Origin: Pseudomonadales bacterium
GTDB lineage: Bacteria > Pseudomonadota > Gammaproteobacteria > Pseudomonadales > JAHRWD01
Direction: 5' to 3'
Length of the DNA: 33,795 bases
Assembly (NCBI GenBank): GCA_016763075.1
Contig: JAESUM010000082.1
Location: 1 to 33,795 of the forward strand
Each line of letters starts with the position of its first letter. The stretch's first letter is position 1. Under the pieces are notes generated by a model that saw only the letters and a program-made list of their open reading frames with translations, did no database searches and was not told the origin of the DNA. Of the stretch, positions 1-19,555 are shown in pieces. A program made the position numbers and the translations under genes.

Positions 1-1882
1 CCAGTACATCTTGTCGACCAACGCTGTTAAACACCCAGGTTACTTCTGAGTCAACGTTACTAGAGGGGTTAAATTCACCACGGCGCACAAAGCCGTTGCG
101 CTCGGTGAGTAATACTTTTTCACCGGTATCAACATCTAGCTGATCACGCAGAGAGGTAGGTATATCAAGCAGATAAACTACAGCGCCTCCAACGGTGCGT
201 TGCTCCCAGGTGCTTGAACCTACTTTGATTGCATCGCCATTCTGGTTGAAATCAAGCTCATAGAAGTTGCTGGTGTTATCTGTAACCATTTCTACTCTGA
301 GATTGGGGTTGTAACCAATTTCAAGCGCGTTGAGCAGGCTTCCGTTGGATGCCACTGTATTTGAATCTACCGCGCTGTTAACTATCGCCGCGGCCATCGT
401 GATGGCAGTGGTATCGGTTCCGAAATCACCATCGCCGGTTTGGTGCCAAACAGAGTTACACGAACCGCCAAGTGAGGCAACGTTGCTGCAATCCGTGGAA
501 TGCCAAATATTGTAGCTATCCGTTGTAGAGGTAAACATCAGTTGATAGGCTTCTGCACCTGCACTGAACATGGCGCTTCCTACGATGGTGGTCGAATCAA
601 ACGGGCCATCATCCGCAATAATAAACGGCGCAATCGCCTGGCCAGATACATCCACTCGCGAGCCTTCAACATGCTCGCTAGAGTAAGTAACCCCACCGAG
701 CGATTGCAGTTCCCAATCTACGCTGCCATCACTGTTAAGCACGATAGCACTGATGATTTCGTCGTCATCAACCCAGCCAACACTTGTGCTTAATGCAAAG
801 TCTTGCACACCGGGGACCCGGAGGGTAAGGCTTCCGCCGGCCCCAACGTCATACTCCATATCCGTCGTAACCGTGGTACTTGTATCATAGGTTAGCGTGC
901 CGGTTTCTAGGCCTTCAAATACACCTGTATTGTAATCCAGTGCAACATAAAACCAGTTCAGGCCACCTGCTGAGGAGATTAACGCCCCTACATCACCAAT
1001 CACGGCGGTTTCTTCAAGCTCTTGCTGTGCTACTTGGTCATCTAGGTTAACGGTGTCTATTTCTACTTCATCTTCAACCACAGTAACCACTGCTGTGGGG
1101 TCAAAAGTCGTAGCGGTATCGGCATCTACTGCCTCACTGATCACGCCAAGGTCTTCACTGACTTCTGCAACTACCAGCTCAAACAGATCGCCGCTGGTTG
1201 AGGTTGAACCCTGTGCGGTGGCAGCGGTTTCAACCGCCGCTAAGTTGTCTGCAATAATAATGGTCGCGACTTGCGCAATTTCATGTAGACGCTGGAAGTC
1301 AGCTGCATCTGCGCCACCGGCTTCTTCTTTTGCAATGTAATCTTCTAGCAGGTCTGCGCTGGTGCCCAGCGCGGTTTGCACAGCAGCGGTTGCATCGGCT
1401 GCGGTATAACCTTGAATATTTTCGTTGGCTTCAATTTCCGCCTGTACCAATGTGGTCAGTGGGCTTACAAAAGTGGAGCCTGCTGGCGCGGTAAGTACAA
1501 AGCTTTTGGGTACAAAGGTACCGCCAGCGGCGTCTTCATCGCTGGTTACACCGGCTGTAGCCACCAATATTACGGGATTGTTGTCTATTTGTTCTTGGGT
1601 AGCATCTATCGAGAATGCACCACCGGCACGGGTGGTGTCGGAAGGTTCACCGGCATCGCAGGCTTTGTTGTCGTTAAGGTCTAAACATACCGTTGCATCC
1701 ACCAAGTAGCCGTCCGCCACTACGCCAACAAACGTTGAAGTTGCACCACCGCCTGAGCCTGAGCCGCCGCCAGAACCACCACCGGTTTCGCCGCCATCGC
1801 TACTTCCGCCGCCACCGCATGCGGTTAACATCGCAGCACACAATAGCGCCATAGAACCCTTATACATATTTCTCTCGTACAT
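1..1882 (-). CDS. large secreted lipoprotein, 3' end beyond window
   Basis: The frame stays open on the minus strand from the ATG at 1882 to the window edge, about 627 codons with no stop. The N-terminus has a short hydrophobic segment and a lipobox LTAC with Cys at about residue 22, so it should be lipid-modified and exported. A Gly/Ser-rich linker follows directly, then a block reading VADGYLVDATVCLDLNDNKA, an Asp/Asn-rich motif common in gammaproteobacterial surface lipoproteins and resembling a calcium-binding turn. The rest is acidic and beta-rich in look, with paired cysteines near residues 435-445, and is not assignable to an enzyme family. An in-frame ATG at 1867 has better spacing to a GAGAG sequence and could be the true start. 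Function unknown; surface adhesion or substrate binding is a guess. Confidence 0.8.
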   Translation of the reverse strand, partial: MYERNMYKGSMALLCAAMLTACGGGGSSDGGETGGGSGGGSGSGGGATSTFVGVVADGYLVDATVCLDLNDNKACDAGEPSDTTRAGGAFSIDATQEQIDNNPVILVATAGVTSDEDAAGGTFVPKSFVLTAPAGSTFVSPLTTLVQAEIEANENIQGYTAADATAAVQTALGTSADLLEDYIAKEEAGGADAADFQRLHEIAQVATIIIADNLAAVETAATAQGSTSTSGDLFELVVAEVSEDLGVISEAVDADTATTFDPTAVVTVVEDEVEIDTVNLDDQVAQQELEETAVIGDVGALISSAGGLNWFYVALDYNTGVFEGLETGTLTYDTSTTVTTDMEYDVGAGGSLTLRVPGVQDFALSTSVGWVDDDEIISAIVLNSDGSVDWELQSLGGVTYSSEHVEGSRVDVSGQAIAPFIIADDGPFDSTTIVGSAMFSAGAEAYQLMFTSTTDSYNIWHSTDCSNVASLGGSCNSVWHQTGDGDFGTDTTAITMAAAIVNSAVDSNTVASNGSLLNALEIGYNPNLRVEMVTDNTSNFYELDFNQNGDAIKVGSSTWEQRTVGGAVVYLLDIPTSLRDQLDVDTGEKVLLTERNGFVRRGEFNPSSNVDSEVTWVFNSVGRQDVL

Positions 1883-2102
1883 TTCCTGCAACCTCGAAGT
1901 GAGTTAGGCCTAGCTGCCAGCAATTGCGTTGCTATACTTCCCGCAGTATCACTGTATTCAAGAATGTAATACCTACAAATTCCTCGTCTGCGCAACGACC
2001 CGACATGCTAGAATACCTCAACCAAAACCGCATCACCCATTTGGGGTATGCTACGCATTAAATCCCATTCACAAACTGGTTAAACAGCGGTAGTTACCTC
2101 AC

Positions 2103-3830
2103 GTGAAGAAATCAGGCGTTGATGCGGCCATATTGGTCTCGCTCATTTACGAAAAGCTCCAAAACCCCTTTCAATACCAAGGCTTTACCCCGCAAGATAA
2201 CGAAAATCTCGCTGGGTTTGATATCACCGATGAAGAACTCAATACCTTTAGTGCCGGTATGTTGAGCCCCGTTGTGCTCAAAGAGATTACGCCGCACTTG
2301 GAGCAAGCCCTCTCTTTAGCAGAAAAATTAGAAAACGTTGCGTTGACCCAACCGGCTCAAGCGGCTATTTCGTTTTTTGATTTACCCATCCCAGTATTGC
2401 TTTTTTCCAGCCGACTGGTCTTACTGCAAGCCAACTCGCCAGCACAACACATGCTAGTTGAGCATATTCAGTTGCCGCAAAAAGCCGCAACAGCACTCAC
2501 CATGGATGCAGCACTCAGAAAAGATGTTCTGACAGCGGTCGCCTCTACTATTGATACCCATACCACCCGCAGCCTAAGTTTCACGGTGGAAGCCGGCGTA
2601 ATACGCACTGCTATTGTTATTCCTCAAGAAAATTCGCAACCCGGCACTTCAGCAAATGCAGCCGTACTTTTTTTGAATCATGAAAGCCGTGTTGAAGAGT
2701 TGGCCATGGCACTTATTAGCACCCATGGCTTAACCCAGTCAGAAGCCGAGGTTACCGCATATTTAGCACAAGGGCTTTCTCCAAAATCAATCGCGGAAAA
2801 GAAACAAACCTCCATTAATACGGTACGCACTCAGATCAAGCGAACCTTTGCTAAAACCAAAACTACTCACCAAGCGCAACTGGTGTCTCTGGTATTAAAC
2901 GGCCCCGCTGTGTGGATGAACATCCTAAAAAACAGCGCCTCATCTCATCAAACAGATCGCACAAAAACCACTGCACCACTATTTGAGCTGTGTGATGGCC
3001 GCAGTATAAGTTATGGCGACTTTGGCCCTAAAGAAGGCAAACCGGTGATTCTGTTTCACCATTTATTCGGATCAAGAGACGATAAACCTGAAGATGACGG
3101 AGTATTAGTGCGGCTCGGCATTCGGCTTATTATTCCCGAACGCCCTGGCGTCGGGCAAACATCTCGAAATCAAAATATGACCATGCTGAGCTGGGCCGAT
3201 GATGTTTTAGCACTGCTAGACCACCTTACAATTGAGCGCTGCCACGTGGCCGGGCTTTCTTCTGGCGCACCCTTTGCAGCTGCACTGACAACCCGGTTAG
3301 GCCCGCGGTCAATCAAGCTTGGGATCATTGCTGCACAAATGCCTGTGGACGAGCTACCCAAGGGCGTCACTGTAGGAACCTTACAGCGTTTTTTAACTAG
3401 TGCTGCTCGGCATATGCCAACAATAGCCGTTAAACAATTAAGATCGACGTACACTAGGCTGCTGGAGGACCCAGCAGAAATGCTTGAGCAGTACAAACGT
3501 AAAACAAGTACCGCCGATAAACTGTTACACCTTAACCCCGATATCGATAACCTGCGATTGCGTAATATTCAGGGTGCAGCAACCCGCTCGGTAAAAATTT
3601 ATGCTCATGAAATTGTTCGATCGGCTAAGCCCTGGGGTTTTTTGTTGGCCGACATTCAAACTCCCGTAATAATATGGCACGGCGCGCAAGACGAGATGTA
3701 CCCACTAGAACACGCCCGCGCGATAGCGCAGATTATTCCAAATTGTGAAACCGTTTTTAATGATGACTGGGGACACTTTTTCCCGCTGCAAGAATGGGAA
3801 TCCATTTATAAAACCTTGATTGCTCAATAG
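2103..3830 (+). CDS. LuxR-type HTH regulator fused to alpha/beta hydrolase (copy 1)
   Basis: 575 aa. Residues 1-200 form an N-terminal region with a possible PAS-like part (about 85-195). Residues 205-265 are a LuxR/GerE helix-turn-helix (LTQSEAEVTAYLAQG, then SINTVRTQIKRTFAKT). Residues 293-575 are an alpha/beta hydrolase with intact triad: Ser386 in GLSSG, Asp530 in HGAQD, His558 in DWGHFF, plus an oxyanion-region HHLFGS. The HTH lies in the middle, whereas most LuxR proteins carry it at the C-terminus. The start is GTG; an in-frame TAG 12 bases upstream rules out a longer protein, and no clear ribosome site is visible. It converges with the AlkC gene and has a homologue at 5231-6997. Likely a cytoplasmic one-component regulator that hydrolyses or senses a small ester, lactone or similar ligand; the ligand is unknown. 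Confidence 0.85.
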   Translation: MKKSGVDAAILVSLIYEKLQNPFQYQGFTPQDNENLAGFDITDEELNTFSAGMLSPVVLKEITPHLEQALSLAEKLENVALTQPAQAAISFFDLPIPVLLFSSRLVLLQANSPAQHMLVEHIQLPQKAATALTMDAALRKDVLTAVASTIDTHTTRSLSFTVEAGVIRTAIVIPQENSQPGTSANAAVLFLNHESRVEELAMALISTHGLTQSEAEVTAYLAQGLSPKSIAEKKQTSINTVRTQIKRTFAKTKTTHQAQLVSLVLNGPAVWMNILKNSASSHQTDRTKTTAPLFELCDGRSISYGDFGPKEGKPVILFHHLFGSRDDKPEDDGVLVRLGIRLIIPERPGVGQTSRNQNMTMLSWADDVLALLDHLTIERCHVAGLSSGAPFAAALTTRLGPRSIKLGIIAAQMPVDELPKGVTVGTLQRFLTSAARHMPTIAVKQLRSTYTRLLEDPAEMLEQYKRKTSTADKLLHLNPDIDNLRLRNIQGAATRSVKIYAHEIVRSAKPWGFLLADIQTPVIIWHGAQDEMYPLEHARAIAQIIPNCETVFNDDWGHFFPLQEWESIYKTLIAQ

Positions 3831-3858
3831 CATTTTTGCACCCAGCCATCACTAAGTA

Positions 3859-4968
3859 TTACGCCAGTGATAGCAACTCAAACTCCACTGATTTTTTCTC
3901 TACGCCATTTACAATAAGACTTAAGCGATGCATACCTGGGTAATGAACCCGCGTATTAAGCTGCTTAAAGTTATGTTTTTTGGTAGCGGTTTTTGTAGTG
4001 CTGTTTATTACGCCTTCATAAATTTTGAATACTTTTCTTGATTGCTTGCCATTGGCTTTAACAAAATCTATACCGTATTCAATTCTGGTTTTACCAAGCT
4101 CACCAGATGTTGCGTTCAAATTTGAATGGCCGTTAATACCCAGCATAAAGCTAAATTCAAAAGACTCTCCAATAGCGAGTTGATCGGTAGATAACTCAAG
4201 TTGTAGAACCTCTGAATGTTGATGGTCAAACCCAAATAATTTTAGCGCTTGTGGATCACCTTTTTTTAACAAGGTTCGGCTAGCGTGTTTTACCAACCAG
4301 TCGGTATCTGGGTGCTTACCGAGCCAACGTGCTGCGGTATCCAAGGTTACAGTAGGGTTATCTTTAGCTATATCATTTAGATTATTAGCAACACTACGCC
4401 TAACATACAGGCTTATATCTTGTTTTAAGTTTTCAAGGATAGCCAATATGGCTTCCGGCGATTTTTTAAATTCAGGTAGTGCCATAGCCCAAGGCAACCT
4501 AGGCCTACACCCTTCTGAGGCTAGCCTTCGTACATGTTCGTTTTCGTGCAATGACCATTCCAGCATTTGCTTCATCATTTTGTTTGAGTCTTGAATAATG
4601 AAAGGCCGCACAGAAAATTCGCTGCTAGAAAATTGCGTAAAATATTCCAGCGCTGGCAGCGATACTTCCCAGTTATCCATTCCATAGGTTTCTACGTAAT
4701 CTGGAAACACCATGGCTCCAAATCCGTCAAAATGAGGCGCTACTTTTTTTAGCACGCCAATCGCTTTTGGGTAATCAAGATTAATAAACTGATGCAAACA
4801 AGCTGTAATATGGTACATGCGCTGTTTTAGTTCGCGCATATTCCAGCTTGAATCAAACACTGCTTTACAAAAGCCAGTTTCATCAAATACCTCATGATGT
4901 TCTTTAACTTTTTTTGCAATTTGTTCAATGTACTGTTGCGAGTATCGATGCTTTAGTAACTCAGCCAT
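3859..4968 (-). CDS. alkC: AlkC-type DNA alkylation repair glycosylase
   Basis: 369 aa. Residues 1-250 are helical HEAT-like repeats with the family block HENEHVRRLASEGCRPRLPW (141-160) and VRRSVANNLNDIAKDNP (189-205), typical of the AlkC/AlkD superfamily. Residues about 253-369 are beta-rich and match the C-terminal Ig-like domain carried by the longer AlkC subfamily. Known members are DNA glycosylases that remove N3-alkylated bases such as 3-methylcytosine and 3-methyladenine without flipping the base. Start ATG 4968 is preceded by AGAGGA with 5-base spacing. The gene sits on the opposite strand between two LuxR-hydrolase paralogues, converging on the first (28-base gap) and diverging from the second (about 260 bases between starts). 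It is not in an obvious Ada or AlkB operon. Confidence 0.85.
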   Translation of the reverse strand: MAELLKHRYSQQYIEQIAKKVKEHHEVFDETGFCKAVFDSSWNMRELKQRMYHITACLHQFINLDYPKAIGVLKKVAPHFDGFGAMVFPDYVETYGMDNWEVSLPALEYFTQFSSSEFSVRPFIIQDSNKMMKQMLEWSLHENEHVRRLASEGCRPRLPWAMALPEFKKSPEAILAILENLKQDISLYVRRSVANNLNDIAKDNPTVTLDTAARWLGKHPDTDWLVKHASRTLLKKGDPQALKLFGFDHQHSEVLQLELSTDQLAIGESFEFSFMLGINGHSNLNATSGELGKTRIEYGIDFVKANGKQSRKVFKIYEGVINSTTKTATKKHNFKQLNTRVHYPGMHRLSLIVNGVEKKSVEFELLSLA

Positions 4969-5105
4969 TTTCGTCCTCTACATTGTATTTTTTGATTTGA
5001 TTTGTTGCGGCCAACTGGAACTTTTATATGCCCGTTATTAGATAATGAGCCGTCGGATTCTCGTTGCCCACATAAACCAGAGAAACCGTATGGCCTATCG
5101 GGTAT

Positions 5106-5160
5106 GCCAAATATTGGCCGCAGTGAAACTACCGCGCTCACACGCTGAATACTCTATAAT
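5106..5160 (+). promoter_or_regulatory. candidate regulated promoter of second LuxR-hydrolase gene
   Basis: A perfect TATAAT lies at 5155-5160, about 70 bases before the start at 5231, with no recognisable -35 hexamer at the right distance (CCGCGC at 5132-5137). About 43 bases upstream of the TATAAT is a dyad, GCCAA-ATA-TTGGC, at 5106-5118. A good -10, a missing -35 and a dyad near -55 fit an activator-dependent promoter. This is inference; the dyad is short enough to occur by chance. Confidence 0.35.
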
Positions 5161-5230
5161 AAAACTTAGAGCTTGGTACGATTGATCGGTTTTTTGGTCG
5201 TATCGATTCACCCCCCATTTCAAACGAAAT

Positions 5231-6997
5231 ATGGTCAGGCAGTCATCCATGGGTTCAAACCAACCGCCCGAGTCGCTGCGATCAAACAACGAACATGTTT
5301 CGGTACTGGTCTCTCTGATTTACGAAGCGGTACTCACACCCAACCTCTCCACCGGCTTAACCGAACGAACGTCCAATTCAAACTTTGCTGCGCTCCAAGG
5401 GTCACCGCTGGATCAAATATTAGATACTGCGCTAGTTAGCCAAACCTTACCTCATCTCGACCATGCCTTAACACTTGCAGCAAAACAGCAACCCGCGAGC
5501 AGCAGAGCTAACGCCGGCATATTATTCAGCGACTTACCGCTTCCGGTGTGCATTATATCCAAACGATTGGAGTTACTTAGCACCAATGACCGCGCCCAGA
5601 TCATGCTGCACACAAGTGTTGATCTACCGCTAAATGCAACACAGGCATTCAACTTTAAGGACTCGTTAAAAGACGAACTATTACACGCCGTTGGCGCGGC
5701 AATACACAGCCAGTGCACTCGCGTGCTTAATTGCACCGTAGATTCTGGGATGGCTCAAACCATTTTGGTAATACCCACCCCCAATAAAGATGGCGCTCAA
5801 ACCTCTATACGCAGCCCAGCGGCGGAAATTGTATTTCTGAATTTTGAAAGCGGCATTGAGGAACTCACAACCGCTCTGGTTGAGATTTATAAACTGACTA
5901 AATCTGAAGCGGGGGTAACCGCGTTACTTGCGCAGGGTTATTCGCTGGCAAAAATTGCAGAGATCAAAAACTGTTCTATCAATACTGTGCGTACCCAAAT
6001 TAAAACCACTTACCGCAAAACCGGAACCTGCCGGCAGGGGCAGTTGATATCTCTGGCACTTAACGGCCCCGCAGTCTGGCTCAATATCGTTAATAACAGC
6101 AACAAGAAGTGGCAAGAATCCAGCGCTTATATCAACCGTGCCGAGGACACCATTGAGCTTAATGATGGGCGCCAGCTTGGTTACGGTGATTACGGCCCCA
6201 AAGATGGCAAGCCCGTAATTCTTTCACACCACCTAATGGGTTCAAGAAAAGAAAAACCAGATAATGAGAGTTTATTACAACGCCTTGGTGTTCGGCTTAT
6301 CATCCCGGAACGACCGGGTATTGGGCTATCCAGCACTGCTGTGAATTACACCCTACTGCAATATGCTGCGGATATTCGTGAGCTTGCGGATCAGCTCAAT
6401 CTAGGCTCTGTATATATTGCAGGTGTATCGGCCGGTGGCCCTTTTGCCGCAGCCTGCGCCGCAATACTGGGTGAGCGCGTCATCAAACTAGGATTGATTG
6501 CCTCGCAAATGCCAATGGACGAACTACCCAATGGCGTGATAATCGGTTATACCCAGCGATTACTCACCACCATGTCACGGCATTGGCCTGGCCCAATCCA
6601 AAAGCTGTTAGAAGTCCGCTACAATCGTTTAATGGCCTGCCCCGAAAGCGCGATCAATGAATTCAATCAAAATGGCAGCTCAGCCGATCGAGCATTATTG
6701 CAAACCTCACCCGGGGCACAGCTGCGGCTACGAACATTAATAGACGCCGCGCAACTACCGGTTGAGCTGTTTTCGAGAGAGCTGATTACACTTTCACGGC
6801 CTTGGGGTTTTAAGCTCACAGACATTGCTGCGCCTATCGTATTTTGGCACGGCGAACAGGACGACTATTTTCCCGCCGAACAGACCCAGGTAATGGCCTC
6901 TGTTATTCCAAATAGCTGCGTCACTGTTCGTGAAGACTGGGGGCATTTCTTTCTTTGGAACGAATGGGAAAAAGTCCTTAGCGAGCTGATTAAATAA
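5231..6997 (+). CDS. LuxR-type HTH regulator fused to alpha/beta hydrolase (copy 2)
   Basis: 588 aa paralogue of the product of 2103-3830 with the same architecture: N-terminal sensor-like region (1-210), LuxR HTH (about 215-277, with KLTKSEAGVTALLAQG and INTVRTQIKTTYRKTG), and alpha/beta hydrolase (305-588). The triad is intact: Ser400 in GVSAG, Asp544 in HGEQD, His572 in DWGHFF. The two proteins align end to end, and the hydrolase and HTH halves are clearly more alike than the N-terminal 200 residues, so the two may read different signals. ATG 5231 is the longest start; ATG 5249, preceded by CAGG, is a reasonable alternative. The gene is divergent from the AlkC gene and may be autoregulated, but the sequence does not prove this. 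Confidence 0.85.
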   Translation: MVRQSSMGSNQPPESLRSNNEHVSVLVSLIYEAVLTPNLSTGLTERTSNSNFAALQGSPLDQILDTALVSQTLPHLDHALTLAAKQQPASSRANAGILFSDLPLPVCIISKRLELLSTNDRAQIMLHTSVDLPLNATQAFNFKDSLKDELLHAVGAAIHSQCTRVLNCTVDSGMAQTILVIPTPNKDGAQTSIRSPAAEIVFLNFESGIEELTTALVEIYKLTKSEAGVTALLAQGYSLAKIAEIKNCSINTVRTQIKTTYRKTGTCRQGQLISLALNGPAVWLNIVNNSNKKWQESSAYINRAEDTIELNDGRQLGYGDYGPKDGKPVILSHHLMGSRKEKPDNESLLQRLGVRLIIPERPGIGLSSTAVNYTLLQYAADIRELADQLNLGSVYIAGVSAGGPFAAACAAILGERVIKLGLIASQMPMDELPNGVIIGYTQRLLTTMSRHWPGPIQKLLEVRYNRLMACPESAINEFNQNGSSADRALLQTSPGAQLRLRTLIDAAQLPVELFSRELITLSRPWGFKLTDIAAPIVFWHGEQDDYFPAEQTQVMASVIPNSCVTVREDWGHFFLWNEWEKVLSELIK

Positions 6998-13712: not shown

Positions 13713-15290
13713 ATGGACACTTTCGTTTCTGCAAATAATCTTAACGTTGAACAGGCCATGACCTGCGGCATGGTGCTGGCGATATGGGCCAATAATTTCC
13801 CCGATCGACCGGCTATTTATTCAGCCCAAGGCAACCGTACCTTTGGTGAACTTAATGCTCGCATGAACCAAGTGGCCCGCTCATTTGAGGCCGCTGGATT
13901 AAAGCCCGGCGATGGCGCTGCTCTAATATGTTCAAACCGTCCTGAATACGCCGAAACATTGTTTGCTGCGATGCGCTGCGGAATACGCATTACGCCGGTG
14001 AATTGGCACCTGACGCCCAAAGAGATGATCCATATCGTCAACGATTGCGAAGCCAAAGTACTGATTGGCGATGCACGTATGAAGGACAACCTTGAAGAGG
14101 TACTGGCCAATTCGCCCTGTGTAGAATTAGCATTAGCCGTGGGCGGCGAGATGGAAGGCTTTAGCTCCTACGATGATGTCGTCAACGAACAAGATGGCTC
14201 TGACTTAACCAACCCACTGCCCGGCTCGCCGATGCTGTACACCTCTGGCACCACTGGCCACCCTAAAGGTGTTTGGCGTGAACCTGGCTCAACGATGACC
14301 GGGTCTGTCGCAACGTTATTAACCTACGATGGCGCAACCGATACAGACCTTTGCACCGGCCCGCTGTACCATGCAGCACCCATGGCCTATTCATTAATGG
14401 CGCCACTGCATGCCGGCGTCGGTGTATATTTGATGGATAAATGGGATGCCGAAGAAACACTGCGCGTTATCCAAGAGTACAAAATAACCCATACCCACAT
14501 GGTTCCCACCATGTTCCACCGGATGCTTACGCTACCTGAAGAGGTGCGAAACAAGTACGACATCTCCTCGATGAAATATGTGATTCACGGTGCTGCGCCT
14601 TGCCCGGTGCACGTGAAAAAATCATTCATGGAGTGGTTTGGCAAAATTATGTACGAATATTATGGCGGAACCGAAGGCGGTGGCGCTTGCTACATTGGCC
14701 CAGAAGAGTGGTTCAAACGCCCCGGTTCAGTGGGTCAGCCCGTGCTTGGTGGAACCCTAATTTTAGGCGATGACGACAAGCCTTTACCTGCTGGCGAAAT
14801 CGGCCGTATTTTCATGAAGTCTCCCGAAGCAGGCCGCTTCAGGTACTTTAAAGACGACGGAAAAACTGAAAAAGCCTATCTCGACAAACAACAAGGCCAC
14901 TTCACTTTAGGTGATATGGGTTATTTAGATACCGACGACTTTCTTTATTTGTCGGATCGCCGCAACGATTTAATCCTAAGCGGCGGCGTGAATATTTACC
15001 CCGCAGAAATAGACGCTTGTTTATTGCTTCATCCAGCCGTTGGCGACGCTTGCACAGTAGGTATTGCCAACCCCAACTGGGGCCAAGAAGTGCTTTCGGT
15101 CATTGAACCCAAAGAAGGCGTTGAAGCTACCGACGAGCTAGCGGCAGAGTTAATTGCTCATTGCATCGCCAACATGGCTAAATTTAAATGCCCAAGGCAA
15201 ATTAAATTTATGGATGAGCTACCACGCAGCGAAGCCGGAAAAATTAAACGCCGCCTCATTCGTGATGTATACGACACCGGCAGTCAATAA
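13713..15290 (+). CDS. acyl-CoA synthetase, AMP-forming (copy 1)
   Basis: 525 aa member of the ANL adenylate-forming superfamily; activates a carboxylic acid with ATP and CoA. Motifs: nucleotide loop YTSGTTGHPKGV (176-187), YYGGTEGG (316-323), hinge region DRRNDLILSGGVNIYPAEID (415-434) and catalytic Lys510 in EAGKIKRR. The length fits medium/long-chain or aromatic/alicyclic acyl-CoA synthetases; the substrate cannot be read from sequence. Close paralogue of 16943-18517, roughly three-quarters identical by eye. AAGGAG lies 12 bases before the ATG, a long spacing. It is divergent from the B12 riboswitch operon. A decayed hydrolase follows, so this was probably part of an ester or alicyclic-acid catabolic locus. 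Confidence 0.9.
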   Translation: MDTFVSANNLNVEQAMTCGMVLAIWANNFPDRPAIYSAQGNRTFGELNARMNQVARSFEAAGLKPGDGAALICSNRPEYAETLFAAMRCGIRITPVNWHLTPKEMIHIVNDCEAKVLIGDARMKDNLEEVLANSPCVELALAVGGEMEGFSSYDDVVNEQDGSDLTNPLPGSPMLYTSGTTGHPKGVWREPGSTMTGSVATLLTYDGATDTDLCTGPLYHAAPMAYSLMAPLHAGVGVYLMDKWDAEETLRVIQEYKITHTHMVPTMFHRMLTLPEEVRNKYDISSMKYVIHGAAPCPVHVKKSFMEWFGKIMYEYYGGTEGGGACYIGPEEWFKRPGSVGQPVLGGTLILGDDDKPLPAGEIGRIFMKSPEAGRFRYFKDDGKTEKAYLDKQQGHFTLGDMGYLDTDDFLYLSDRRNDLILSGGVNIYPAEIDACLLLHPAVGDACTVGIANPNWGQEVLSVIEPKEGVEATDELAAELIAHCIANMAKFKCPRQIKFMDELPRSEAGKIKRRLIRDVYDTGSQ

Positions 15291-16942: not shown

Positions 16943-18517
16943 ATGAGTTCACTCGTTTCTGCAAATAATTTAACCCTTGAGCAGGCTGCAACCTGCGGCA
17001 TGGTAGTCGCGGTTTATGCCAACGCATATCCGGATCGTCCAGCCATCTACTCGGATAAGGGCAACCGTACCTTTGCTGAGTTAAACGCTCGCGTTAACCA
17101 ATTGGCGCGCGTATTCAAAGAATCTGGCCTTAAGCCCGGTGATGGCGCAGCACTGATTTGTTCTAACCGCCCTGAATTCGCTGAATCTATTCTTGCTGCG
17201 CTGCGTTCAGGTGTACGGTTAACTCCGGTGAACTGGCATTTGACCGACAAAGAGATCACTCACATTGTTAACGATTGTGAAGCGAAGATTGTGATTGGCG
17301 ATGTACGCCTGAAGAACAATCTGGAATATATGATAAAAAACTGCCCTGGTGTCGAAGTCGCTTTGGCTGTAGGTGGCGAAATCAAAGGTTTTTCATCCTA
17401 TGATGCTGCTGCCGACAAACAAGATGGCTCGGATCTGAGCGACCCGGTTATCGGCTCTCAAATGCTTTATACATCCGGTACTACCGGACATCCAAAAGGT
17501 GTCTGGAAAGATCCGGCAACCGCCCGTCCGGCATCTATCGCAGAGAGACTAACCTATACAGGCGGCGAAGATACCGACCTCTGTACTGGCCCGCTTTACC
17601 ATGCGGCACCATTGGGCATATCCCTGCTGAAGCCGATCAACTCCGGCGTTGGCGTGTACTTTATGGATAAGTGGGACGCAGAAGAAACCTTGCGCATTAT
17701 TCAAGAATACAAAATCACCCATACCCACATGGTGCCAACCATGTTCCACCGTATGTTGGCGCTGCCTGAAGAGGTTCGCAATAAGTACGATGTCTCTTCA
17801 ATGAAATATGTCATTCACGGCGCTGCGCCCTGCCCGGTGCATGTGAAGAAAGAGTTTATGGAGTGGTTCGGCCGTAACATGTTCGAATACTATGGCGGTA
17901 CCGAGGGCGGTGGCGGTTGCTTTATCGAGCCAGAAGAGTGGTTCAAAAAACCCGGCTCGGTCGGCAAACCTTCTCTCGAAGGTACCATCATTCTTAGCGA
18001 TGATGACAAAATTTTACCGCCAGGCGAAATTGGTCGTGTTTATATGATCTCGCCTGATGGCGGTCACTTTAAGTATTTTAAAGCGCCAGAAAAAACCAAT
18101 GACGCATACTTCGGTGAAGGTGACAGCCACTTTACTTTGGGTGATTTGGGTTACTTGGATGAAGAGGGTTATTTGTACCTTTCAGATCGTCGTAGCGATA
18201 TGATTCTGAGTGGTGGCGTTAACGTTTACCCAGCAGAGGTTGATGCCTGTTTGTTGCTTCATCCTGCGGTCGGTGATGCTTGCACCATCGGTATAGCCAA
18301 CCCAAGCTGGGGCCAGGAAGTCATCTCAGTGATTGAACCTAAAGACGGTGTTGAAATCGGTGATGCATTAGCCGAAGAGCTGATCAAGCACTGTATCGAT
18401 AACATTGCTAAGTTCAAATGTCCTCGGCAGATCAAATTTATTGACGAGCTACCTCGCAGCGACGCGGGCAAAATTAAGCGTCGTTTGGTTCGCGATATCT
18501 ATGAGCCTAAAAAATAA
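16943..18517 (+). CDS. acyl-CoA synthetase, AMP-forming (copy 2)
   Basis: 524 aa, co-linear with the product of 13713-15290. All ANL motifs are present: YTSGTTGHPKGV (176-187), YYGGTEGGGG (about 316-325), DRRSDMILSGGVNVYPAEVD (about 415-434) and catalytic Lys510 in DAGKIKRR. Differences cluster at about 190-235 and 375-395, the first of which lies in the acyl-pocket region, so the two copies may prefer different acids. Ribosome site: CGGAG 12 bases before the ATG, with a weaker AGTAGG just upstream. Ends before a strong terminator. Substrate unknown. Confidence 0.9.
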   Translation: MSSLVSANNLTLEQAATCGMVVAVYANAYPDRPAIYSDKGNRTFAELNARVNQLARVFKESGLKPGDGAALICSNRPEFAESILAALRSGVRLTPVNWHLTDKEITHIVNDCEAKIVIGDVRLKNNLEYMIKNCPGVEVALAVGGEIKGFSSYDAAADKQDGSDLSDPVIGSQMLYTSGTTGHPKGVWKDPATARPASIAERLTYTGGEDTDLCTGPLYHAAPLGISLLKPINSGVGVYFMDKWDAEETLRIIQEYKITHTHMVPTMFHRMLALPEEVRNKYDVSSMKYVIHGAAPCPVHVKKEFMEWFGRNMFEYYGGTEGGGGCFIEPEEWFKKPGSVGKPSLEGTIILSDDDKILPPGEIGRVYMISPDGGHFKYFKAPEKTNDAYFGEGDSHFTLGDLGYLDEEGYLYLSDRRSDMILSGGVNVYPAEVDACLLLHPAVGDACTIGIANPSWGQEVISVIEPKDGVEIGDALAEELIKHCIDNIAKFKCPRQIKFIDELPRSDAGKIKRRLVRDIYEPKK

Positions 18518-18670: not shown

Positions 18671-19555
18671 TTAGTATCCAAAAGATTTAAGCGCTAAACA
18701 TACTTGTTCGTAGGTCTCTTCTGGGATTTCCTGCATAAAGTTATGACCACCGGTCATTTGAACCGCTGTTATATTGGGGTTGGTCTGCGCTGCTTTTTTG
18801 CTGTTAGCAAGTATCGGCGAGCGTGCATCATCGCCATGAATAATGACGGTTGGCACGACCAATTTATCAAGGTTCTCCCATATCGTTTCTAGCGGGCTTG
18901 CTAATACTTCGGCTTCGGTTTGCGGTGCACATTTCAGGTGGTAGCTGCCGTCACTATGCAACACTAATGTGTGATCTATAAACGAAGTGAACGCGTCTTC
19001 GGTCCATTGTGCGAAGGCTGGCTTGGATCTAAAAAAACGGTGAACTTGCTCCAGGTTGTCCCATTTAGCTTTTCTTCGTAGGGTTCGCTGGGCCATTGGG
19101 CTTTCATTTATTGGCAGCTTCACCAGTAGTTCCGGCGGCATTATCATTGGGTCCAGTAATATCAAACCATCGAACAGTTCAGGGCGTTGAACGGCCATAA
19201 TAACGCTCAGCGATGCACCGTAACTGTGGCCCATGCCTATCAACGCAGAACCACTGTTTTTAACCTCAAAATTGTCCATTACGCCAAAGGCGTGTTCAAT
19301 GGCTTTTTCCCACCCGACGAATAGATCTCCTGCGTCACTTTCGCCATGGCCCTGCATGTCTTGCATAAAAAGGCCATTATTTTCTGTCAGTTGCTTCAAC
19401 AACGGCCAATATAATTTCCCACAAAACGCAACGCCGTGCATGAAGTGCAACATGGGCTTATCTTTGGCCGGGTGGCTATTGCCACGTAACGTTAGGCCGG
19501 ACTCAACTTCATATTCCCACGCGTCGGTGGATGCAAGAACTGGACAATCTTTCAT
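18671..19555 (-). CDS. alpha/beta hydrolase
   Basis: 294 aa cytoplasmic alpha/beta hydrolase. Nucleophile Ser111 in GHSYG, acid Asp242 or Asp243 in HGDDARSP, His271 in GGHNFMQE; the oxyanion region reads MHGVAFCGKLYW. A lid-like helical insert spans about 140-210. No signal peptide. Ribosome site AGGA about 10 bases before the ATG. It sits between two acyl-CoA synthetases and a broken MFS transporter, consistent with opening an ester or lactone whose acid product the synthetases would activate; this is inference from position. Exact substrate unknown. Confidence 0.82.
   Translation of the reverse strand: MKDCPVLASTDAWEYEVESGLTLRGNSHPAKDKPMLHFMHGVAFCGKLYWPLLKQLTENNGLFMQDMQGHGESDAGDLFVGWEKAIEHAFGVMDNFEVKNSGSALIGMGHSYGASLSVIMAVQRPELFDGLILLDPMIMPPELLVKLPINESPMAQRTLRRKAKWDNLEQVHRFFRSKPAFAQWTEDAFTSFIDHTLVLHSDGSYHLKCAPQTEAEVLASPLETIWENLDKLVVPTVIIHGDDARSPILANSKKAAQTNPNITAVQMTGGHNFMQEIPEETYEQVCLALKSFGY

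Follow-up and report, generated by a model that had tools for sequence, protein, structure and literature searches.

Paired PAS-LuxR regulators with a C-terminal alpha/beta hydrolase in a Pseudomonadales bacterium, and the frequent absence of the catalytic triad among their fused relatives

Why should a transcriptional regulator carry a complete hydrolase behind its DNA-binding domain? The question is raised by two genes on contig JAESUM010000082.1 of a Pseudomonadales bacterium (assembly GCA_016763075.1; the whole 33,795-nucleotide stretch that was analysed is called the window here), gene 1 and gene 2, each of which encodes a LuxR-type regulator followed by an alpha/beta hydrolase. The initial annotation proposed a one-protein circuit, in which the hydrolase either binds a ligand as a receptor or destroys the signal that controls the helix-turn-helix (HTH). 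A one-protein circuit is still the natural reading, with a PAS-like fold predicted and both triads intact, but signal destruction does not stand as a general role, as only 17 of 95 fused proteins have an intact triad. The reading that we favour, and to which we would give an even chance, is that these proteins are one-component regulators that bind their ligand in the hydrolase fold, which would make them a single-chain equivalent of the RsbQ/RsbP-PAS module of Bacillus. Its basis in sequence and model comprises the domain order, the triads, the predicted PAS-like and hydrolase folds, the frequent loss of the triad in relatives, the tandem copies and the exported-looking divergent neighbours.

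The order sensor-like region, LuxR HTH and hydrolase is borne out by Pfam in both proteins and, for the sensor-like part, by the PAS-like fold predicted for gene 1. GerE scores above the curated Pfam cut-off in each, as does Abhydrolase_1 (residues 313-562 of gene 1, E 2.4e-15; residues 328-577 of gene 2, E 1.2e-15), and the HTH lies mid-protein rather than at the C-terminus (residues 210-263 of 575 and 222-275 of 588). The triads S386/D530/H558 and S400/D544/H572 had been numbered exactly and both are complete, with nucleophile elbows GLSSG (S386) in gene 1 and GVSAG (S400) in gene 2. The N-terminal regions differ most, as the initial annotation had also stated: the proteins are 45% identical overall, with 27% identity over the first 89 residues and 39% over the PAS region, against 64% in the HTH and 46% in the hydrolase. 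With gene 2 as the query, only gene 1 and gene 2 were found in their own genome at E <= 0.001. In G001, the second species of this genus, the two regulators occur in the identical order with the same HEAT-like gene between them, and the pair is therefore neither a chance match nor an accident of assembly.

The domain search and structure prediction that had been proposed as checks recovered the PAS-like, GerE and hydrolase domains, the structure being that of gene 1. The full chain was modelled from 12 rows (mean predicted local distance difference test, pLDDT, 74.4) and the N-terminal half alone from 16 rows (mean pLDDT 77.5, predicted template modelling score 0.52). According to Foldseek, the best ten matches of the N-terminal model are all PAS-LuxR factors, namely VqmA (6ide, 7dwm, 6kju, 6ugl) and EL222 (3p7n, 8a5r), with low whole-chain TM-scores of 0.28-0.38. 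Using VIA-align, the same model matches the PAS domain 3fc7 with a Z of 12.3 (96 of 98 residues, root-mean-square deviation, rmsd, of 2.7) and VqmA 6ugl with a Z of 10.5 (167 residues, rmsd 8.7 Å); the high rmsd to VqmA probably reflects a different domain placement in the model. The two-domain matches to TraR and LasR come near the value for VqmA, with Z of 9.7 and 9.6 (131 and 127 residues, rmsd 10.9 and 9.4). At the sequence level Pfam did not match PAS in either window protein, and in four of the five relatives scanned it did so only below threshold. We considered an acyl-homoserine lactone (AHL)-type LuxR receptor, which is not favoured: when the N-terminal halves were scanned with Pfam (E up to 10, with filters that remove most weak matches), no autoinducer-binding domain was among the matches listed, and the single-domain fold match is to PAS, although the TraR and LasR two-domain matches nearly equal that to VqmA. 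The hydrolase part is closest to 9wlv (Z 27.9, 281 residues, rmsd 2.8), followed among the matches listed by esterases and haloperoxidases; RsbQ and D14/KAI2 are absent among the matches listed in the fold and sequence searches. Its modelled fold, together with the nucleophile elbow, acid and His, places it in the alpha/beta hydrolase superfamily. A named enzyme family was sought and rejected; the NCBIfam matches shown are far under their cut-offs, so no substrate is claimed. The order in the model is a long helix, a PAS-like domain, the LuxR HTH, a linker helix and the hydrolase.

Each half of this arrangement has known relatives. VqmA and EL222, which are PAS-LuxR one-component regulators, share the predicted PAS-like fold followed by a LuxR HTH; unlike in these, the HTH of the window proteins is mid-protein, with some 300 residues of hydrolase after it. 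Standalone alpha/beta hydrolases and esterases, among them 9wlv, EstT/EstX and aryl esterases, share the hydrolase fold and the triad of the window proteins, but are separate enzymes, and 21 of the 23 near ones sampled keep the triad. The plant D14/KAI2 proteins are likewise alpha/beta hydrolases with a triad, discussed as receptors. They are not known to have a DNA-binding domain, and they signal through other, ligand-dependent protein partners. The initial annotation's analogy with them fits in mechanism only; a nearer precedent comes from bacteria, in the pairing of RsbQ with the RsbP PAS domain (PMC3183031). There the hydrolase and PAS of Bacillus subtilis RsbQ/RsbP are described as a bipartite sensing module, with adjacent genes and phosphatase, histidine kinase or diguanylate cyclase outputs; neither LuxR nor helix-turn-helix occurs in the main text. 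Two models are offered, and in model 2 the hydrolase acts as the sensor and makes contact with PAS, while catalysis may serve as a timer. The window proteins resemble RsbQ/RsbP in joining an alpha/beta hydrolase to a predicted PAS domain that would control an output domain, and their triad is intact as in RsbQ. They differ from RsbQ/RsbP in that a single polypeptide ends in the hydrolase and has a LuxR HTH for its output, and most of their sampled fused relatives, unlike RsbQ, lack the triad.

How far the architecture extends was surveyed, as had been suggested, with a profile from eight full-length proteins (four with intact and four with dead triads) against genomes sampled from the order (390), the class (369) and the phylum (398) at E <= 1e-40. 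At most three top candidates were scored per genome, and a fusion was counted only after both domains had been checked in the retrieved sequence. The profile matched in 39, 38 and 37 genomes, respectively, standalone hydrolases included, and the full fused architecture was confirmed in 22/390, 12/369 and 32/398, which amounts to 64 distinct genomes (G000 is common to all three surveys). Six further named contigs carry the fusion: metagenome-assembled genomes (MAGs) of Cohaesibacter and Henriciella (two copies each), Antarcticimicrobium sediminis, a Gammaproteobacteria MAG and two alphaproteobacterial MAGs. Rows outside these counts that look like fusions, or may be ones, are G738:C8 (one stop inside), G954:C308 (partial), G982:C59, G924:C90 (partial) and G543:C8 (a hydrolase match in a 487-residue frame). 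A first contig scan of genomes had confirmed no relative, and with the protein of L100 (an alphaproteobacterial MAG) as the query, only this genus's two species were found among 293 genomes of the order at E <= 1e-60. The architecture reaches beyond this genus.

Is the fused hydrolase still an enzyme in these relatives? We compared 95 distinct fusions with a complete hydrolase (near-identical copies were excluded, and so were two ORFs with an incomplete hydrolase, L111:5443-7056 and L103:3-941) with 23 standalone hydrolases of 250-400 aa, a set taken from the loci at hand rather than at random and outside which lie at least nine more standalone rows of the order survey. Ser-Asp-His is kept in 17/95 fusions (with Cys-Asp-His in four more) compared with 21/23 of the separately encoded hydrolases. 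Neither Ser nor Cys is present as the nucleophile in 53 of the fusions, His is missing from 62, and 74 have neither Ser-Asp-His nor Cys-Asp-His; the Cohaesibacter pair is among the relatives with a dead site. After thinning to <50% identity, the triad is intact in 12/63 fusions and 15/17 standalone proteins (Fisher p 2.4e-7, uncorrected for kinship). Homologues with a usually dead hydrolase had been named by the initial annotation as evidence against its proposal, and dead sites do largely prevail in the sampled family, the window's own clade standing apart. This clade of five (the window pair, their two G001 counterparts and the L100 protein; SH-aLRT 99) keeps the triad in 5/5 rows at 35-60% identity. 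The alignment suggests that the fused hydrolase fold is mostly a pseudoenzyme in the sampled family, with the window's clade as the intact exception. Since so few fusions keep Ser-Asp-His, hydrolysis cannot be the general function, and for the same reason a receptor role fits better than signal destruction. A domain that is retained while its catalytic residues differ repeatedly most probably binds rather than cuts, to judge from these sequences, which agrees with the second of the RsbQ/RsbP-PAS models; a catalytic timer may survive in the window pair.

The intact clade also bears on two other explanations. The hydrolase could make the signal and hand its product to PAS, and PAS would then be the true sensor that drives the HTH, as in model 1 of the RsbQP paper. 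Intact triads throughout the window's clade (five of five rows) and the predicted PAS-like fold agree with this, as does the requirement for the RsbQ triad in signalling (PMC3183031); it cannot hold for the family at large, as 74/95 fusions have neither form of the triad, and we regard it as unlikely. Alternatively, the hydrolase could destroy a signal sensed by the PAS-LuxR half, as a built-in off switch or quencher. The intact window triads would allow this, and the fold matches include the AHL-degrading esterase 5egn (Z 21.7) and macrolide esterases, but such esterase matches are superfamily-wide and far under the curated NCBIfam cut-offs, and the triad is missing from most of the relatives sampled. 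Moreover, no other family is widely recurrent within 5 kb, so that no partner synthase was seen. We consider this explanation quite improbable. For the window's clade, the product-to-PAS and quencher models may still apply.

On a tree built without the three catalytic columns, the triad state changes at least ten times and the fusion state at least four times (at least eight triad changes among the fusions alone), counts that do not separate gain from loss. Such repeated change would also suit a third explanation, in which the hydrolase fold has no ligand and serves chiefly for dimerisation or stability, the intact triads being leftovers. The replacements, however, are uniform within several clades, although these were picked after inspection: the Ser position is Cys in 11/11, Val in 4/4 and Gly in 6/6 rows of three dead clades, with mean column conservation of 0.74, 0.73 and 0.58, respectively, as expected of a repurposed pocket. 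The triad of the window's clade is also kept at the level of divergence given above, and a purely structural role thus seems a poor prospect.

The preferred reading, that the hydrolase fold is a ligand pocket, has several points against it. An independent-pairs test of fusion against triad state found three pairs only (median p 0.5), so kinship may still account for the contrast between fused and standalone proteins. Among the dead clades examined, five in all, one (6 rows) is variable at the Ser position and another (8 rows) has Glu in seven rows and Asp in one, and the clades were chosen after their letters had been seen, which favours uniform ones. Triad states were taken from alignment columns and not from models, and the model of the whole gene 1 protein is of moderate quality (mean pLDDT 74.4) and of a single chain. 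The triads retained in the window could, on their residues, mean real catalysis rather than sensing.

If the hydrolase fold is the ligand pocket, each protein would dimerise and bind DNA through its LuxR HTH, and a small hydrophobic molecule, perhaps ester- or lactone-like, would be sensed in the C-terminal pocket. Occupancy of the pocket would be relayed to PAS and the HTH inside the dimer, as proposed for RsbQ acting on the PAS domain of RsbP. In most sampled members catalysis in the pocket would have been lost, leaving binding only, while in the window's clade the triad is kept, and the switch would probably be reset by slow cleavage. Locally, gene 1 is likely to act on the divergent lipoprotein gene (Table 1). 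Gene 2 would be a diverged copy for another cue or might be a heterodimer partner.

Table 1. Features of the window that bear on the two regulators
Feature	Positions	Strand	Basis
Gene 1: PAS-LuxR-alpha/beta hydrolase regulator, 575 aa, GTG start	2103..3830	+	Open reading frame (ORF) + Pfam
Gene 2: second regulator, same architecture, 588 aa, ATG start	5231..6997	+	ORF + Pfam
Gene 1 predicted PAS-like domain, residues ~90-192, long helix (56-82) ahead	2370..2678	+	Model
Gene 1 LuxR-type HTH (GerE), residues 210-263	2730..2891	+	Pfam
Gene 1 alpha/beta hydrolase domain, residues ~292-573	2976..3821	+	Pfam, model
Gene 1 nucleophile S386	3258..3260	+	Sequence
Gene 1 acid D530	3690..3692	+	Sequence
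Gene 1 base H558	3774..3776	+	Sequence
Gene 2 PAS-like region, residues ~98-204, position from alignment to gene 1	5522..5842	+	Alignment only
Gene 2 LuxR-type HTH (GerE), residues 222-275	5894..6055	+	Pfam
Gene 2 hydrolase, Abhydrolase_1 match, residues 328-577	6212..6961	+	Pfam
Gene 2 nucleophile S400	6428..6430	+	Sequence
Gene 2 acid D544	6860..6862	+	Sequence
Gene 2 base H572	6944..6946	+	Sequence
HEAT-like gene between genes 1 and 2, convergent with gene 1, divergent from gene 2	3859..4968	-	ORF, sub-threshold Pfam
Gene of lipoprotein-like product, divergent, extends past window edge; candidate gene 1 target	2..1891	-	
Upstream region common to gene 1 and lipoprotein gene	1892..2102	.	

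What might such regulators control? When the genes within 5 kb of the 95 fusions were clustered, the most recurrent neighbour was another copy of the family (13 members in 7 loci). Copies are directly adjacent in L036, L069 and L101; in L033/window, L080 and L109 they lie close together and flank a gene on the opposite strand; L137 has a neighbouring second hydrolase ORF without an HTH. The near-tandem pair of L080 (5515-7209 and 8400-10067) has one Cys-Asp-His and one Ser-Asp-His protein, and its intervening opposite-strand gene looks exported. A conserved operon partner was rejected, every other neighbour cluster listed touching at most five fusions; the cluster of the HEAT-like gene, which has a sub-threshold Pfam match to DNA_alkylation, holds loci of this genus only.

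Of 94 fusions, 39 have a divergent neighbour (a gene of at least 120 aa within 500 bp), and 22 of these neighbours are exported-looking, 11 as lipoproteins. The assignment follows a rule of our own (positive n-region, hydrophobic stretch, lipobox or A-x-A) rather than SignalP, with related loci counted separately, and the same method was applied to standalone hydrolases (8 examined), where 0/2 divergent neighbours are exported-looking. A first version of the count gave 22/36 for divergent genes compared with 111/546 for other neighbours. The lipoprotein-like product of the window resembles that of a gene divergent from the fusion of L088 (36% over 210 residues) and that of a gene upstream of the fusion of L133 on the same strand (39% over 98 residues). 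The genes L100:4899-5771 and L169:5838-6620 also diverge from fusions, and the C-terminal tails of their products are what we take to be PEP-CTERM-like. Other counts temper this pattern. In the first version of the count the exported-looking share is 13/39 for immediate upstream non-divergent genes and 24/94 for immediate downstream genes, which is lower but not negligible, and the lipoprotein-like products of the genus's two species match over only 23 residues. PAS-LuxR proteins without a hydrolase (30 examined) also show an exported-looking divergent neighbour in 5/13 cases; these proteins of ~370-400 aa (L177 to L211) are divergent from lipoprotein-like genes too. An exported divergent neighbour was rejected as a hydrolase-specific mark and says nothing about the hydrolase, because these relatives have one without it.

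A palindrome scan of four upstream regions gave no operator at its threshold. The region 1892-2102 shares a short, weak block with the sequence upstream of the G001 orthologue of gene 1. The block includes a -10-like TAGAnT, and around CCAT..TGG there is a partial dyad; as a putative operator it is only a lead. Elsewhere in the window, two similar AMP-binding acyl-CoA synthetase-like genes (13713-15290 and 16943-18517) have the same orientation and lie ~1.65 kb apart, with a further hydrolase gene (18671-19555) on the opposite strand.

PAS-LuxR regulators, hydrolase-PAS modules and hydrolase receptors are already known separately; what appears to be new is that a single chain unites them and has a DNA output, together with the frequent loss of the active site, of which we found no description in open-access papers. 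No characterised member of the PAS-LuxR-hydrolase architecture was found in that literature, and the available parts of PMC3466318, PMC2447327, PMC4338825 and PMC5413776 do not describe such a protein. The suggestion that the system is undescribed holds to the extent that open-access papers gave no functional characterisation. A wider picture, which we put forward tentatively, is of a widespread, uncharacterised Pseudomonadota family in which a hydrolase was captured behind a PAS-LuxR regulator and repeatedly turned from enzyme into receptor with clade-specific catalytic replacements, the window pair being a lineage in which the enzyme would be retained, so that one family would hold both states and control surface proteins. 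For the plant strigolactone and karrikin receptors, binding versus cutting is reportedly debated, one title asking 'receptors, enzymes, or both?'. The same choice is left open for RsbQ by the two models in PMC3183031. A receptor fold, PAS and DNA output in one chain, with naturally live and dead sites, would make binding versus cutting testable by simple reporter assays.

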